NCBI RefSeq assembly: GCF_000428845.1
Contig: NZ_AUAS01000008.1
Coordinates: 186,001 to 250,000, forward strand
DNA: 64,000 nucleotides
Direction: 5' to 3'
Origin: Dyadobacter alkalitolerans DSM 23607
GTDB lineage: Bacteria > Bacteroidota > Bacteroidia > Cytophagales > Spirosomataceae
The notes below the pieces were generated by a model that saw nothing but the letters and a program-made list of their open reading frames with translations, was not told the DNA's origin and made no database searches. A program made the position numbers and the translations under genes. Below are positions 22,962 through 29,743 of this stretch, piece after piece; positions within the stretch are counted from its first letter, which is position 1; each line of letters opens with the position of its first letter.

Positions 22962-23597
22962 ATGTTAAAACTTCGACAACTTATAGTGCTCTGTGCGACT
23001 ATATTGTTACTGAACTCCGCATTTTCTGTATTCACAGCACCCGTTCCCGCGCCACTGAAAAAGCCTGTTAAGTTATTTAATGGCAAAGATCTGAGCGGCT
23101 GGAAAGTCAACGGGACCGAAAAATGGTATGTAGAAAACGGTGAACTGATCTGCGAAAGCGGACCGGACAAACAATATGGCTACCTAACTACCGACAAGTT
23201 CTACAAGAATTTTGACCTTTCCCTGCAATTCAAGCAAGAGGCGAATGGTAATAGCGGCGTGTTTTTCCGCTCCACGGTTACCGGAACGAAAGTTTCGGGC
23301 TGGCAGGTTGAAGTTGCGCCACCAAACCATGACACAGGTGGCATTTACGAATCTTACGGCCGTAACTGGCTGGTACAGATCCCGGACGAAAAAGAAGGTT
23401 TCCTGAAAATGGGTGAATGGAACACATTGAGAATCCGCGCTGTAGGGGATAATGTTAAAACCTATCTTAATGGTAATCAAATGGTTGATTTCACAGATGC
23501 TAAAATCGGTGCCGGAGAAGGCTCAATAGCATTGCAGATCCACGATGGCGGCGGCATTAAAGTGCGTTGGAAAAATATTACTCTGGAAGAGCTTTAA
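22962..23597 (+). CDS. Secreted DUF1080 (3-keto-disaccharide hydrolase family) protein
   Basis: 211 aa with a signal peptide of about 25 residues. The DUF1080 domain (concanavalin-like beta sandwich) is clear from KLFNGKDLSGWKV, the WYVENGELIC and NFDLSLQFKQ strands, GNSGVFFRS, and the end EGSIALQIHDGGGIKVRWKNITLEEL. Members have been linked to hydrolysis of 3-keto-glycosides, but many have unknown substrates, so activity is not certain here. It is followed by an unusually long hairpin at 23675-23731. Confidence 0.88.
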   Translation: MLKLRQLIVLCATILLLNSAFSVFTAPVPAPLKKPVKLFNGKDLSGWKVNGTEKWYVENGELICESGPDKQYGYLTTDKFYKNFDLSLQFKQEANGNSGVFFRSTVTGTKVSGWQVEVAPPNHDTGGIYESYGRNWLVQIPDEKEGFLKMGEWNTLRIRAVGDNVKTYLNGNQMVDFTDAKIGAGEGSIALQIHDGGGIKVRWKNITLEEL

Positions 23598-23674
23598 GCT
23601 TCCTTCTTCATTCCGGCTGCAACGGCGTTCATACATTCGAAATAAGCAGTTCGTCGGAAAACGCTTACCATAGG

Positions 23675-23737
23675 GCTTCATGGCTGATAGATTTGTGTAA
23701 ACAAGTAACACAAGTCTATTAGCCATGAAGCTTTTTT
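23675..23737 (+). terminator. Very long hairpin followed by T-run, downstream of the DUF1080 gene
   Basis: A 24-nt arm (23675-23698, starting GCTTCATGGCT) pairs with 23708-23731 (ending AGCCATGAAGC); 22 Watson-Crick and two G-U pairs, loop of 9 nt, then TTTTTT. It is more than twice the usual terminator stem. It probably ends the DUF1080 transcript, but its size and the ORF that begins within its 3' arm suggest it may do more. Confidence 0.75.
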
Positions 23738-23829
23738 ATTTTAAGTATCCGGAGAAAACCAGCGCCTTATTAAAGGATGCAGAATCAATTGGCAAATCAG
23801 AATGGATGCTAGCCCAGACTAATCAGTAA
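23725..23829 (+). CDS. Possible 34-aa small protein
   Basis: A 34-codon ORF that begins with ATG inside the 3' arm of the long hairpin and ends 20 nt before the histidine kinase start. The peptide begins MKLFYFKYPEKTSALL and continues with a charged, helical-looking stretch ending AQTNQ. No homologue is recognised. Normal codon use and the position just before a kinase are suggestive, but an ORF of this size can occur by chance. Could be a leader peptide, a gene remnant, or nothing. Confidence 0.3.
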   Translation: MKLFYFKYPEKTSALLKDAESIGKSEWMLAQTNQ

Positions 23830-23849
23830 CATTGCGTTTCACTTAAATT

Positions 23850-25319
23850 ATGAACGAAAAAGGAACGAAGCGTCTGCGGATGACGGCATCATCACTGGAT
23901 GGAAGGGATTTTAGTAATATGGATCTTGAAAATGCTGATTTTAGCTTCTCAAGCCTCAAAGACATCAATTTCGATGGCGCTAACCTGCGCAATGCGAAGC
24001 TTCGTTTCGCTGCATTGGACCGCACCACATTCCGGAATTCCGACCTGCGCAATGCCGATTTGAGTTTCAGCAGCTTAACCGATGTTGACCTCACCGGTGC
24101 CCGGGTGGAGGGGGCCAATTTCAGTTTTACCTCACAAGAAAAATCATTTAACTGGCGTGATCTTAACCTAATAGGCATCATTCAAAATCAGGGTTGGATA
24201 GGGACAGTGGTCGCTGTTATCCTGGGCGCCACTGTGTTGTACGGGATTAATGCGATCTCTTATTTTACTGCTGAAATCTACTTCACCAATGAGCCCGTCC
24301 GGATCAAGCTGTATCAATATCTGGTTTCCCAAAATGTTATAGCGGGCGTTTTTACCATTCTGCTAACCCAGGGAATCACCATATGGCTCGACGTTTTCAT
24401 TACCCGAACCATTCTTAAGCACATTATTTTATCGGTAATTGTGCTCATAATGAACAATTTGCTCGCAGTAGCCGTCTATTTTCTTTTTGGCGTAACGCTG
24501 GTAGATAATTACAGGAATCTTTATCCCAATGAAGCAGCACAGGATGCGCCCTGGTACTGGTATATGTGGGGACCGATCATTGTTGCTAATATTTTCTACT
24601 TTCTGAGCCGCGAAGGCAAACAGATTTCCAGGAAGATTTCCGATCAGGAATTTCAATTACTAAACCTGGAAAAGCTGAAAACCCGCGCCGAGCTGGACGC
24701 ATTGCAGGCACGCATTAACCCTCATTTTTTATACAATTCCTTAAACAGCATTGCCAGCCTCGTCCATGAGGATCCCGATAAGGCCGAGGAAATGACACTT
24801 TTGCTTTCCAAACTGTTCAGATACACGACCGGAAGGAAAACGAACGATTATTTTGATACAATCGAGAATGAGCTGGAAATGGTTGCCACTTATCTGCAAG
24901 TGGAGAAAGTACGGTTTGGGGAGAGGCTCAGATTTACTGTTGAGGTGACCGATCCTGCACTGAAAGAATTGCATGTTCCCAAATTCATTTTACAGCCCAT
25001 CGTGGAAAACGCAATTAAGCACGGCGTTGCCAAACTGGCCGAACAAGGCGCAATCGTAGTCCGCATTTACGAAGAAGACGAGTGGCTGCATTTATGTGTG
25101 CACGACAATGGCCCGCCGTTTTCTGAAACAATGGGCGCCGGATATGGAATGAGGAGCATTCAGGACAAATTAAAATTGCTTTATGGCGATGCCGCGCGCC
25201 TTGAACTGCATAATGAGCCGCGCAAATCGGTCAACATTTCGATACAAAAATCTGCTATTATACAAAATCAACATCAAGGCCATGACCCAATTCCCGCTGA
25301 AAACGATTCTCATAGATGA
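23850..25319 (+). CDS. LytS-type histidine kinase with N-terminal pentapeptide repeats
   Basis: 489 aa. Residues about 15-95 are pentapeptide repeats of the A(D/N)LxF type (for example ENADFSFSSL, GANLRNAKL, RNADLSFSSL), expected to form a quadrilateral beta helix. Four hydrophobic segments follow (about 114-136, 155-180, 188-215, 238-252). The HisKA-like (His_kinase/LytS) domain has phospho-acceptor His292 in ARINPHFLYNSLNSIA and an N-box PIVENAIKHGV and G-box GYGMRSIQDKL for ATP. The gene overlaps the LytTR regulator by 38 nt, so the pair is a two-component system. A soluble repeat domain in front of the membrane part is unusual. Confidence 0.93.
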   Translation: MNEKGTKRLRMTASSLDGRDFSNMDLENADFSFSSLKDINFDGANLRNAKLRFAALDRTTFRNSDLRNADLSFSSLTDVDLTGARVEGANFSFTSQEKSFNWRDLNLIGIIQNQGWIGTVVAVILGATVLYGINAISYFTAEIYFTNEPVRIKLYQYLVSQNVIAGVFTILLTQGITIWLDVFITRTILKHIILSVIVLIMNNLLAVAVYFLFGVTLVDNYRNLYPNEAAQDAPWYWYMWGPIIVANIFYFLSREGKQISRKISDQEFQLLNLEKLKTRAELDALQARINPHFLYNSLNSIASLVHEDPDKAEEMTLLLSKLFRYTTGRKTNDYFDTIENELEMVATYLQVEKVRFGERLRFTVEVTDPALKELHVPKFILQPIVENAIKHGVAKLAEQGAIVVRIYEEDEWLHLCVHDNGPPFSETMGAGYGMRSIQDKLKLLYGDAARLELHNEPRKSVNISIQKSAIIQNQHQGHDPIPAENDSHR

Positions 25320-26067
25320 CGAGCCGCTGGCATTAAGCCGGCTTCGAAGGCTTTTGGAAAAGCACAACAATGTTTTTACCATTGTATCCGAAGCAAAAAA
25401 CGGCGCAGAAGGGTTGGTCGAGATTGACAAGCATAGTCCCGATATCATCTTCCTCGACATTGAAATGCCCCTTTTAAATGGTTTCGAAATGCTCGCCAAG
25501 CTGACCAAGATGCCGCTGGTGATATTTTCAACGGCCTACGATCAGTATGCGATCCGCGCTTTTGAGGAAAATTCTGTTGATTATCTGCTAAAACCTGTCG
25601 AGAACGAGCGGCTGGTTAAGACCATTGAGAAGATCCGCAACATTACCAAAGCAGGCGCCAACAATCTCGCCACGGTAAATCCTTATTCCGAAAACCTGCT
25701 CAGGCTGTTGGAGGAAATGAAACCTAAAAGAGAGATCTTCTCCTTGTCGGTGAAATCAGGCGACCGGATCTTGCTCATTCCCCTGACTGAGATCACCCAT
25801 TTCGAAGCAGAGGAAAAGTATGTTTTTTTAAACACATTAGACGGACAAAAATATCTGCTCAATTATACGCTGACATCTCTGGAAGAGAAGCTTCCCAACC
25901 AATATCTGCGCATTAGCCGCGCCGGGATCGTTAATTCCCACCACATCAAAGAAATCCAAAAGCATTTCAACAGCAAGTATGTCATTATCATGCGCGACCG
26001 CAAGGCATCCCAGCTCACAAGCGGCAGCACATATGGAGAAGCAATCCGCCATCTTCTTGATAATTAA
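25282..26067 (+). CDS. LytTR-family response regulator
   Basis: 261 aa. The receiver domain (1-120) has the acidic pair in IDDEP, phospho-acceptor Asp59 (IIFLDIEMP), the conserved Thr/Ser (IFSTA) and Lys (YLLKPV). The LytTR DNA-binding domain occupies about 150-245 (LLIPLTEITHFEAEEKYVFL, LRISRAGIVNSHHIKEI). ATG 25282 gives a proper receiver start; a longer frame from 25183 would add unrelated residues inside the kinase gene. Overlap with the kinase stop (25319) implies translational coupling and a dedicated partner. Confidence 0.95.
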   Translation: MTQFPLKTILIDDEPLALSRLRRLLEKHNNVFTIVSEAKNGAEGLVEIDKHSPDIIFLDIEMPLLNGFEMLAKLTKMPLVIFSTAYDQYAIRAFEENSVDYLLKPVENERLVKTIEKIRNITKAGANNLATVNPYSENLLRLLEEMKPKREIFSLSVKSGDRILLIPLTEITHFEAEEKYVFLNTLDGQKYLLNYTLTSLEEKLPNQYLRISRAGIVNSHHIKEIQKHFNSKYVIIMRDRKASQLTSGSTYGEAIRHLLDN

Positions 26068-26385
26068 TCGGGTTACTCCTTCCCCGGACACAAAATAATG
26101 ATTTTGAAGAGGGCTTACTTATTCCTAAATTGCGCCCTGATTTTAAATTCCATTACTATTTTTGAGGTTAATCAACTGTTCATCAGAACGTTTTTAGCAA
26201 TTTGAGACGGAGCTAAGACTAATATTTTTTTAGTTTTCGACACAGAATGCTGCGTTCCTGCGTATCGTGATGTACAAAGTGATCCCTTTAAAAAAGCGGG
26301 AGATTTAAATTTTGATCTTAGTAGAAAAGATCCTCGCTGTAGTTCATTTTGTTTTTGTTAAAAAAGGTTAAAGGGGTCAGGAATA
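26068..26385. other. Intergenic region, 318 nt, upstream of uppS
   Basis: AT-rich and without a gene. It contains TATTTTTG at 26157-26164, a TAnnTTTG match with a TTG 24 nt upstream (26130-26132), slightly beyond the usual spacing: a candidate start of the uppS-bamA-ompH transcript with a leader of about 215 nt. No terminator for the regulator gene with a clear T-run is visible. No RNA gene recognised. Confidence 0.5.
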
Positions 26386-27138
26386 ATGAAGGAGCTCATT
26401 GATACGGGCAATCTGCCAAAGCACATCGCCGTTATCATGGACGGTAACGGAAGATGGGCCCAAAACCAGGGAGCAGCGCGCATTTTCGGCCATCGCAACG
26501 CGATTAAGGCCGTTAGGGAAGTAACCGAAGGTTGTGCAGAACTGGGTGTCGGTTTTTTGACACTTTATGCATTTTCAACTGAAAACTGGGCTCGTCCCGA
26601 GTTTGAAGTGAGGGCTTTGATGGAATTACTGGTTCAGTCTATTGGAAACGAGCTGCCAACTATGCTCAAAAACAATGTAAAGCTGGACACGATCGGTGAC
26701 ACGGAAAGTCTGCCAAAAAGCTGCCGCAGAACATTGGCAGAAGCTGTTGAAGCCACAAAGGCAAATACAGGCCTTAACCTGATCCTGGCGCTGGGTTACA
26801 GCGGAAAATGGGACATTACCCAGGCTGCGAGGAAGATTGCGGAGGATGTGAAGAATGGTGTGATTGCACCGCAGGAGATCAACGAAGAAATGCTGGCCGC
26901 GAATCTGGCAACCCAAAACCGCCCGGAAGTGGACCTGATGCTGCGCACAGGCGGTGATCACAGGATCAGCAATTTTCTTTTATGGCAGCTTGCTTACGCC
27001 GAGCTGTATTTTTACGAGAACCTTTTCTGGCCGGATTTCAGGCGGGAACATTTATATGAAGCGATTGCCGCCTTTCAAAACAGAGAGCGTCGTTTTGGCA
27101 AAACTGGTGAACAAATCAAAGCGAATAGTGCTAAGTAA
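26386..27138 (+). CDS. uppS: Isoprenyl transferase (undecaprenyl diphosphate synthase)
   Basis: Makes the C55 lipid carrier for peptidoglycan and other envelope polymers by cis-prenyl condensation of isopentenyl diphosphate. The 250-aa protein has the catalytic motif IAVIMDGNGRWA (Asp19), the GHRNAIKAVRE segment, LYAFSTENWARP, and the RTGGDHRISNFLLWQLAYAELYF region near the C-terminus. All are diagnostic. bamA follows 4 nt later, so the cluster links lipid-carrier synthesis to outer-membrane assembly. Confidence 0.97.
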   Translation: MKELIDTGNLPKHIAVIMDGNGRWAQNQGAARIFGHRNAIKAVREVTEGCAELGVGFLTLYAFSTENWARPEFEVRALMELLVQSIGNELPTMLKNNVKLDTIGDTESLPKSCRRTLAEAVEATKANTGLNLILALGYSGKWDITQAARKIAEDVKNGVIAPQEINEEMLAANLATQNRPEVDLMLRTGGDHRISNFLLWQLAYAELYFYENLFWPDFRREHLYEAIAAFQNRERRFGKTGEQIKANSAK

Positions 27139-27142
27139 TAAT

Positions 27143-29743
27143 ATGAACCTTGTGAAAAATTTGAATAGATCATTAGCACACCTCAAAAGTATTTTAGCAT
27201 TGATCCTGCTTTGCTGGTGTTTTTCAGCAAATGCACAAAAGGTCGGGCTGGGAGCTGCGGGATCAAAGCCTGCTTCTGCCGCCGCCGGTTTGGGCATTGA
27301 CCCGGCTAATCCAAAAGAATTTACAATTGCAGAAGTGACTGTTTCAGGAACCCAGTTCCTGGATCCTAATTCCATGGTTTCCATCTCAGGCTTGAAACCT
27401 GGCGATAAAATCCGCGTGCCGGGACCAGCAATTCCATCGTCGATCAGAAGAATGATGGATTTCGGGACATTGAATGATGTCGAGATCATGGCTACGAAAG
27501 TGGAAGGCGAAAAGATCTGGTTGAACATTCACATCAAAGAGCGTCCGAGACTTTACAAAGTTTCCTTCTCAGGCATCCGCAAAGGCGAGCGCGAAACATT
27601 GAATGATAAGGTGAAATTGATCAAAGGGCGTGTTATTACGCCAACCGTAATCAAGAACACCCAGCTTGTTATCAAGAAATATTACATGGATAAAGGGTTT
27701 TACAACACCAAGGTAAAGGTGTTGCAAATCCCGGATTCGACGCGTGGACAGGCTACGCTTAACTTTACCATTACAAAAGGTAAGAAGGTTAAGATCGAGG
27801 AAATTGACATTCAGGGAAATACGGCGGTGAGCGATAAAATCCTCAAACGCAAAATGAAAGGCACCAAGCAGAAAAGAATTGGCCGTCTTTTCAACCCATC
27901 CAAATACATTCCTAAAAAATACGACGAAGACAAGGAAAAACTCATCGCCTACTATCGTAAGAATGGTTACCGCGATGCAACGATTGAATTTGACTCCATA
28001 AAAAATGGTGATGAAACGATCAGCATTGTCATGAAGATTGACGAGGGAACCAAGTATTTCTATCGCGACATAACCTGGTCAGGAAATTACCTTTATACAT
28101 CTGCTTATCTGGGTGAGCGTCTGGGTGTTAAGAAGGGCGACGTTTACAATCCCGAAGAACTAGACAAAAAGATCAATGGTATCCCCGGTGCCGACGTTAG
28201 CTCCATTTATATGGACGACGGTTACCTGTATTTCCGCATTGAGCCTACGGAAAAGGCAGTTGAAGGCGATTCTATCGACGTTGAATTAAGAATGTTTGAA
28301 GGAAAGCAGGCAACGATCAACCGCATTTTGCTGAATGGTAACACCAAAACCAGTGACCGGGTGGTGTTAAGGGAGCTTTTCACATTGCCCGGACAAAAAT
28401 TCAGTAAAACAGAGATTATCAACACACAACGTCAATTATCCCAAATGGGCTATTTTGACCCTGAAAAAATCCAGATCAATCCGATCCCCAACCAGCAGGA
28501 CGGAACGGTGGATATCGAATACACCGTAGAAGAAAAGCCGTCTGACCAGATCGAATTATCCGGTGGATGGGGTGGATACATTGGTTTTGTTGGAACGCTT
28601 GGTTTGGTATTCAATAACTTCTCACTGAAAAACATTCCTAACCGTGAAACCTGGCGGCCATTGCCTTCTGGTGACGGTCAAAAACTATCGTTGCGTTTCC
28701 AGGCGAACGGAAAGCAGTATCAAACCTACTCGCTGTCATTCAGTGAACCATGGCTTGGCGGCAAGAAACCGATCAACTTTGGTGTGTCCTTACAGCGCAC
28801 AGTTTACCGGATGACAGATCCACGTTCTTTTTATAACAATTTGGGACAAGGTAACGGAGGTTTGAGCTACCGCGGTGGTTATTTCAATAATGGAATTACC
28901 TTATCACTTGGTCGTCGTCTTAAAGAACCGGATCGCAATCTTGTTATGACCCATTCGCTTGCTTATCAGCGATACAGACTGGACGATCTGGACATTTTCA
29001 GGATTGGATATAGCAATGGTGTATCAAACAATATTTCGTTCAACACAACGATATCCAGAAATACCCTGAGCGATTTCCAATTCCCAAGAAACGGAAGCAA
29101 CATTTCCCTAAGCGGAACGTTCACGCCGCCTTATTCAGCATTTAGGAAGAAGACTTTCACAGACAAGACCGACACATATCGTTGGGTAGAATATCACAAA
29201 TGGATGTTTGACGCCAGCTATTATGCAACCATCACAGGAAAGCTTGTATTGAGCGCTCGTACGCACATGGGTTTCCTTGGAGCCTATGGAGACAAAGTTG
29301 GTTACAGCCCATTCGGCCGCTTCATCGTGGGTGGATCGGGGCTGGCAGGTCAAGGTTCATTCTCACTTGCTGACCAGGACATTATCGGTTTGCGTGGTTA
29401 CCAGGATCAGAAAGTCGGGCCTCAGAACGCGGACGGATTTCCTGCATCCGGAGGTGGAATTGTGTATAACAAATTTGTAATGGAGCTTCGTTACCCTGTT
29501 TCATTGAACCCGCAAGCAACCATCTTTATTTTAGGTTTCGCAGAAGGTGGAAACAACTGGGGCACGTATAAAGAGTTTAACCCATTTGACCTTAAGCGTT
29601 CAGCCGGGGTTGGTGCTCGTATATTTATGCCAGCATTCGGCCTTCTGGGAATTGACTGGGGTTATGGGTTTGATAAAATACAGGGAGACCCAAAACGAAG
29701 CGGACCACAATTCCATTTTACGATTGGTCAGCAGATCAGATAA
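27143..29743 (+). CDS. bamA: Outer membrane protein assembly factor BamA
   Basis: Inserts beta-barrel proteins into the outer membrane. The 866-aa protein has a signal peptide (ends near SANAQ), POTRA domains over about residues 60-420 (for example TVSGTQFLDPNS, LYKVSFSG, EEIDIQGNTAVSD, INRILLNGNTKTSDRVVLRE), and a 16-strand Omp85 barrel with the VGGSGLAG...GLRGY loop-6 motif (VRGF/Y type) and a C-terminal Phe/aromatic strand. ATG 27143 is chosen; a frame opening at 26954 overlaps uppS and lacks a signal peptide there. It is followed by two Skp-like chaperones. Confidence 0.96.
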   Translation: MNLVKNLNRSLAHLKSILALILLCWCFSANAQKVGLGAAGSKPASAAAGLGIDPANPKEFTIAEVTVSGTQFLDPNSMVSISGLKPGDKIRVPGPAIPSSIRRMMDFGTLNDVEIMATKVEGEKIWLNIHIKERPRLYKVSFSGIRKGERETLNDKVKLIKGRVITPTVIKNTQLVIKKYYMDKGFYNTKVKVLQIPDSTRGQATLNFTITKGKKVKIEEIDIQGNTAVSDKILKRKMKGTKQKRIGRLFNPSKYIPKKYDEDKEKLIAYYRKNGYRDATIEFDSIKNGDETISIVMKIDEGTKYFYRDITWSGNYLYTSAYLGERLGVKKGDVYNPEELDKKINGIPGADVSSIYMDDGYLYFRIEPTEKAVEGDSIDVELRMFEGKQATINRILLNGNTKTSDRVVLRELFTLPGQKFSKTEIINTQRQLSQMGYFDPEKIQINPIPNQQDGTVDIEYTVEEKPSDQIELSGGWGGYIGFVGTLGLVFNNFSLKNIPNRETWRPLPSGDGQKLSLRFQANGKQYQTYSLSFSEPWLGGKKPINFGVSLQRTVYRMTDPRSFYNNLGQGNGGLSYRGGYFNNGITLSLGRRLKEPDRNLVMTHSLAYQRYRLDDLDIFRIGYSNGVSNNISFNTTISRNTLSDFQFPRNGSNISLSGTFTPPYSAFRKKTFTDKTDTYRWVEYHKWMFDASYYATITGKLVLSARTHMGFLGAYGDKVGYSPFGRFIVGGSGLAGQGSFSLADQDIIGLRGYQDQKVGPQNADGFPASGGGIVYNKFVMELRYPVSLNPQATIFILGFAEGGNNWGTYKEFNPFDLKRSAGVGARIFMPAFGLLGIDWGYGFDKIQGDPKRSGPQFHFTIGQQIR

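Follow-up and report, generated by a model that had tools for sequence, protein, structure and literature searches.

A LytS-type histidine kinase of Dyadobacter alkalitolerans DSM 23607 carries a predicted beta helix of pentapeptide repeats ahead of four predicted membrane helices and a conserved kinase core, a new domain architecture within a known kind of two-component system. Its gene lies in a stretch of 64,000 nucleotides that was analysed as a whole (the window; Table 1). An earlier note on this DNA knew of no described function for such a fusion, and in the open-licence PMC literature we likewise found no paper on it. Across related genomes the same kinase occurs with nothing, a pentapeptide domain, a Toastrack domain or a shrunken repeat remnant before its first membrane helix (TM1), several of these in one gene neighbourhood. 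This is a natural matched series, in which the contribution of a cytoplasmic beta solenoid to a membrane sensor becomes directly measurable. Pentapeptide repeats are common, but few are known to have a role beyond gyrase protection. On balance we favour a docking role for this one: a cytoplasmic beta solenoid that tunes or positions the kinase and is not needed for the basic relay.

Table 1. Features of the window discussed in the text
Feature	Position	Strand	Basis and remarks
Hairpin followed by a T run, terminator-like	23674..23737	+	-40.0 kcal/mol in the window
Deletion scar	23725..23829	+	By-eye comparison with loci L039 and L011
LytS-type histidine kinase gene	23850..25319	+	489 aa: pentapeptide beta helix, linker, 4 TM helices, DHp (His292), ATPase core
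Predicted pentapeptide-repeat beta helix, residues 11-95	23880..24134	+	4 coils, Phe ladder F33/F53/F73/F93; Pfam, AlphaFold2, MfpA match
Four predicted membrane helices, ~residues 116-256	24195..24617	+	AlphaFold2 helices; modest charge bias of loops
Kinase core, residues 280-466	24687..25247	+	Phospho-acceptor His292 at 24723-24725; PF06580 E 5.3e-27; GanS fold match
LytTR response regulator (REC + LytTR), 261 aa	25282..26067	+	Pfam; overlaps kinase by 38 nt

The kinase is encoded by one open frame, and since other genera, and 45 of the 48 genomes from the same genus, have it open too, a misjoined frame, which the earlier note had named as a possible undoing of its reading, is ruled out. The canonical His292 core that the note described is confirmed by PF06580 (94.3 bits against a cut-off of 25.2, residues 280-360), by the NPHFLYN His box and by the invariance of H292 across an alignment of 44 sequences. 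PF02518 scored below its cut-off (23.7 vs 26.4); the HATPase domain was recognised by its predicted fold, the kinase core matching the GanS kinase domain 6swj with Z 17.6 and rmsd 4.7 over 180 residues (VIA-align). The four hydrophobic segments seen earlier correspond to AlphaFold2 helices at residues 116-145, 149-183, 187-224 and 235-286, the last continuing into the kinase. The model was built on the 44-sequence alignment and has a pTM of 0.45, so that only its individual domains are trusted and the position of the beta helix relative to membrane and kinase is left unfixed by it. The 50 Foldseek matches listed for the model were all kinases or phytochromes, the beta-helix match coming from the VIA-align list. 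The N-terminal membrane sensor of LytS is of the 5TM-LYT type. That family is absent among the eight Pfam matches of the window kinase up to E 1, which argues for a LytS-type core and not a LytS orthologue; the membrane helices themselves have no Pfam sensor match above cut-off, nor did any other known sensor domain, the second possibility that the note had raised against itself, score above cut-off. Dyadobacter sp. CY347 (L039) and D. psychrophilus (L069) are the nearest named neighbours of the window locus in the trees, and the L039 kinase is 96% identical to that of the window.

Several lines of evidence support a right-handed quadrilateral beta helix of four coils as the predicted fold of the N-terminal domain. 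PF00805 matches the first 95 residues at E 1.1e-14 (54.1 bits against a cut-off of 20.2), and PF13599 lies barely above its cut-off (38.2 vs 38). Approximately 16 five-residue repeats span residues 14-93; in a simple scan 13 units run unbroken in one register, a number reached in none of 20,000 shuffled versions of this 104-residue stretch (maximum 8, mean 2.1). AlphaFold2 places strands at residues 10-12, 30-33, 50-53, 70-73 and 90-93, that is every 20 residues, with pLDDT 83-93, and the domain superimposes on the MfpA structures of M. smegmatis and M. tuberculosis with Z 12.7 and rmsd 2.1 over 88 and 89 residues (VIA-align). Repeats at about residues 15-95, and a beta helix formed by them, were therefore rightly read from the sequence; the A(D/N)LxF pattern proposed for them is found at every fourth repeat only, where Phe occupies the i+2 position (33, 53, 73 and 93), and does not describe the remaining repeats. 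The cytoplasmic location suggested earlier is also what we predict, since an even number of membrane helices (four) separates the domain from a cytoplasmic kinase. The loop charges lend this topology modest sequence-based support, with a mean K+R of 2.57 in the inner loop and 6.45 after TM4, the outer loops averaging 1.34 and 2.30; in outer loop 3 the K+R of 2.30 is matched by a D+E of 2.34.

The domain is well conserved. Measured as 1 minus normalised entropy over the 44 sequences, conservation is 0.71 in the pentapeptide part, 0.50 in the linker, 0.57 in the membrane part and 0.82 in the kinase. Side chains at i+2 point outward in the pentapeptide beta-helix fold. Among outward positions, faces A, C, D and B score 0.77, 0.72, 0.66 and 0.46, figures that carry no shuffle control and set faces A and C little apart; the ladder lies on face A, with Phe at positions 33, 53, 73 and 93 in 43, 38, 38 and 40 of 43-44 sequences. 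By the Nei-Gojobori method, dN/dS between the window and L039 is 0.014 in the pentapeptide domain, 0.035 in the membrane part and 0.020 in the kinase; L039 is the comparison to be read here, dS being near or past saturation in the others. At the level of coding sequence, these ratios show strong purifying selection on the domain. The conservation of the faces may reflect no more than folding or dimerisation.

Of 48 same-genus genomes, 45 have a match that covers the repeat domain, and such matches extend to Rhabdobacter, Telluribacter, Persicitalea, Spirosoma, Fibrisoma, Rudanella and Arsenicibacter; the loci labelled as pentapeptide number 70, in Dyadobacter and eleven other genera. Of 222 genomes of the family, the Spirosomataceae, 150 have the 4TM-kinase part at E <= 1e-45. 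Among 395 genomes sampled from the phylum Bacteroidota, seven matched at E <= 1e-50. Four of these, one being the window's genome and the others belonging to its family, match over nearly the full length; the remaining three span residues 172-472 at most, without the repeat domain. The scan of genome contigs used close-family patterns. One further record with a match that covers the repeats, named Flavobacterium sp. SUN052 (L084), has the operon with a kinase that branches with Rudanella, and is either a mislabelled genome or a case of transfer. Two further pentapeptide-repeat frames are present in the window's genome, at G000:C2:322599-322943 (212 aa) and C1:229258-229623 (194 aa).

The slot before TM1 is variable. 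Among 124 kinase loci, drawn from two genome collections so that some genomes are counted twice, 70 have the pentapeptide domain, 25 have Toastrack in its place, 23 have neither and six are distant kinases picked up by the scan of genome contigs; the labels were assigned with two profiles that had themselves been made from loci of these sets, the Toastrack profile from 17 of its 25. The 23 loci with neither domain are mixed: most have a short N-terminus, L142 has a remnant of the repeats, L172 has another long N-terminus and L185-L188 are distant. L172 encodes a 623-aa kinase of another genus, its different long N-terminal part beginning with a signal-peptide-like start. At L085 (pentapeptide) and L174 (Toastrack) the N-terminal domain lies in an adjoining frame and not in that of the kinase, which is a true frameshift or a sequencing error. 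Pfam identified the Toastrack domain in all four Emticicia and Runella kinases scanned, with PF13349 above cut-off at E 3e-7 to 3e-11. AlphaFold2 models a beta region at residues 16-334 of a Toastrack kinase with pLDDT mostly 80-95; 4QRK is cited as a Toastrack structure in the excerpted text of PMC11237479, and Foldseek matches the region to 4qrk at E 4.3e-6, but with a TM-score of 0.28 and an rmsd of 15.5.

An unrooted tree of the shared 4TM-kinase part places the Toastrack kinases in one clade with support 100/100 when long branches are left out; when these are included two changes are required for Toastrack because L170 wanders. The pentapeptide kinases and L142 likewise form one clade (84/98 without long branches, 97/97 in the other tree), and a topology separating 34 pentapeptide rows from L142 is rejected (p-AU 8e-6). 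Empty-slot kinases L151-L157 fall beside the pentapeptide clade, which makes a single gain the simplest reading of this unrooted tree: the domain was apparently joined once to a 4TM-LytS kinase, to judge from the sequences available. L142, of the Spirosoma genus (g5), would then be a clear case of one later loss, its pentapeptide domain shrunk to a remnant of ~40 residues with the frames of kinase and regulator open. L141 may represent another loss; a similar linker is kept, the repeats are absent, and both frames are again open. Part of this distribution may go back to paralogues that were lost differentially, given that the Runella genome G211 contains both a pentapeptide (L144) and a Toastrack (L145) kinase and that some Runella kinases have no adjoining regulator; G212 also has two matches.

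The gene neighbourhood ties these forms together. An order common to many loci is a TonB-receptor-like gene (CarbopepD_reg_2, with Plug above cut-off in one of two scanned), a gene for a ~215-aa secreted protein (its start resembles a signal peptide; Pfam gave nothing above cut-off), the kinase and the LytTR regulator. The ~215-aa gene lies upstream in 46/70 pentapeptide, 11/25 Toastrack and 15/23 other loci and the receptor-like gene in 42/70, 8/25 and 11/23, counts taken from 1.5-5 kb of upstream DNA in which misses include truncation, a few hits are partial and some genomes are counted twice. A regulator homologue follows within 600 nt of the kinase in 66/70, 25/25 and 19/23 loci, respectively. 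On the downstream side, Dyadobacter, Rhabdobacter, Telluribacter and Persicitalea have uppS, bamA and skp, the first two of which also stand after kinases without the domain (L141, L151 and L155-L157); these genes were not found beside the Spirosoma, Runella and Emticicia kinases in the stretches examined. It is these common neighbours that argue most strongly for the three forms of the slot being a single system whose front end can be exchanged. The window's genome also has a distant copy of the ~215-aa gene (33%) at G000:C1:559175-559813; the kinase core of a further LytS-type kinase is matched ~0.6 kb beyond it (C1:560383, region to 560619).

The window locus itself is a trimmed version of this operon. 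In L039 the receptor and ~215-aa genes sit between a 3-keto-disaccharide hydrolase gene and the kinase. From the window they have been deleted, leaving a scar, read in the window only, that contains the first receptor codons (ATG 23725) and two fragments of the ~215-aa gene (from ~23757; stop 23827-23829). Because kinase and regulator were kept after the deletion, their task outlasts the receptor and ~215-aa genes. The terminator-like hairpin was found by a fixed-motif search in the window and in 13 of 52 loci; in L039 the receptor start codon lies inside its 3' arm, and it may attenuate the operon. In L043 a two-sided pair change in the hairpin was noted by eye.

Across 36 Dyadobacter, Rhabdobacter and Telluribacter loci the ~215-aa gene is present in 24, counting L042 where it was found alone, and absent in 12, a distribution that needs nine changes on the tree. 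With the labels shuffled the mean is 10.2 changes, and 114 of 500 such runs gave a number as low as the observed nine, so that presence of the gene hardly follows kinship. The receptor/~215-aa pair thus comes and goes about nine times while kinase and regulator persist; it may be regained by recombination, and one guess is that phage or bacteriocin pressure acting through the receptor drives the turnover. Two Dyadobacter genomes (G029 and G040) have neither kinase nor regulator upstream of uppS, indicating that the system is dispensable in those genomes.

The regulator of the window has REC (E 6.7e-22) and LytTR (E 5e-20) domains, and its 38-nt overlap with the kinase (25282-25319) is exactly as the earlier note gave it. 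Among named Dyadobacter loci the identical overlap is present in L039 only; in the rest it is shorter or missing, and it varies in other genera. For four Runella pentapeptide kinases (L143, L144, L148 and L191; genus g62) no adjoining regulator was found. Upstream of all four lies a SpoIIM-family gene, assigned by PF01944 in L148 and by membership of the same cluster in the others. Between the regulator and uppS of the window, at 26116-26136, is a 21-nt element, TACTTATTCCTAAATTGCGCC. At up to three mismatches it has one copy in the window's genome and is present in 48/48 same-genus genomes, a reversed control pattern matching in 4/48. It was dropped as a LytTR site of this regulator because it stays with uppS in G040 and G029, where kinase and regulator are absent from a 12-kb stretch (a third Dyadobacter genome, G032, has too little upstream DNA for this to be judged); possibly it is a uppS leader or promoter. 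No LytTR target site was identified. Rfam gave no gathering-level match in 23000-27500.

What might the beta helix do? The earlier note proposed an input or scaffolding module. An obligatory input is unlikely, given that kinases in the same place and operon lack the domain, that L142 has lost most of it with its frames open, and that a whole clade has Toastrack in the slot; the scaffolding half of the proposal, as an accessory docking surface, fits these observations better. Uneven conservation of the faces, the Phe ladder and the absence or loss of the domain in related kinases together point to such a surface and not to a core switch. In the mechanism we have in mind, the beta solenoid would present a docking surface beneath the inner membrane, and the conserved face, on which every fourth repeat has Phe at i+2, would bind a partner protein or the kinase/membrane interface. 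By docking there, the module would determine the location or the ease of kinase switching by the 4TM sensor; phosphate would then pass from His292 to the LytTR regulator, and the regulator would bind its promoters. The basic relay would run without the module.

A possible alternative, to which we give clearly less weight, is that the beta helix binds nothing else and acts through intrinsic dimerisation or as a rigid spacer, stabilising the kinase dimer or holding the N-terminus off the membrane. LytS-type kinases act as dimers and MfpA-like proteins dimerise, both of which suit this explanation, as does the short linker between beta helix and TM1 (~20 residues in the AlphaFold2 model). However, the difference in conservation between face A and face B exceeds what a spacer needs, even if the face of a homodimer would be conserved too, and related kinases that lack the domain still have open frames and a regulator in the same position. 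We consider it unlikely that the domain is instead a direct sensor whose input is a small molecule, an ion, a nucleic acid or gyrase, the last as a DNA mimic in the manner of Qnr and MfpA. Its fold match to MfpA and the negative net charge of residues 11-96 in 44/44 sequences (-1 to -9) are what such a sensor would lead one to expect, but the charge is mild, there are four coils only, and the domain is absent or lost in related kinases. Nor is it a member of the DNA-mimic, gyrase-protecting proteins, scoring far below the NCBIfam cut-offs for the listed models of those families (for instance MfpA 21.5 vs 360 bits, Qnr 20 vs 240). That the repeats are a neutral passenger, captured once by fusion and with no function of their own, is highly improbable: they are shrunk in L142 and missing in L141 beside open kinase and regulator frames, but their dN/dS against L039 is below that of the membrane and kinase parts and they are retained throughout most of the genus and at 70 loci of 12 genera. 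An accessory docking module remains our preferred reading.

Compared with known systems, the window protein shares with LytS-type kinases (PF06580) that pair with LytTR regulators the NPHFLYN His box, the kinase core and an adjoining REC-LytTR gene, the GanS kinase domain being its best solved relative. It differs from them in its four membrane helices, which lack a Pfam sensor match, and in its N-terminal pentapeptide beta helix. A signalling kinase fused to pentapeptide repeats is also represented in cyanobacteria (SpkB, Slr1697); in the excerpted text of PMC2176072 and PMC1262709 these are Ser/Thr kinases of another phylum with C-terminal repeats, to which that text assigns no role within the kinase. 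The Toastrack (DUF4097) proteins of the Lia/PSP envelope-stress systems are a further comparison. As excerpted, their Toastrack is likewise a right-handed beta helix, proposed to be intracellular and linked to membrane modules and two-component systems, and it is Toastrack that fills the same slot in the sister kinases; the window kinase, unlike Lia/PSP proteins, has no PF13349, PspC or LiaI-LiaF match in Pfam. In the same excerpts (PMC11237479), Toastrack tends to sit C-terminal to membrane domains and is proposed as an intracellular surface for sub-membrane complexes.

The HAAS-PadR systems offer a parallel, for there, in the excerpted part of PMC11237479, one signalling domain, HAAS, has either of these two beta solenoids, Toastrack or pentapeptide repeats, as its fusion partner. 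Those systems are not two-component, and the pentapeptide form of HAAS is found mostly in Firmicutes. Because the alternation recurs in an unrelated signalling system, a shared role is plausible, and we tentatively raise the possibility that pentapeptide and Toastrack solenoids, though unrelated in sequence, are interchangeable sub-membrane adaptors in both 4TM-LytS kinases and HAAS proteins. If so, the ladder of either solenoid would form a flat surface, and membrane-linked partners of one class would dock on both.
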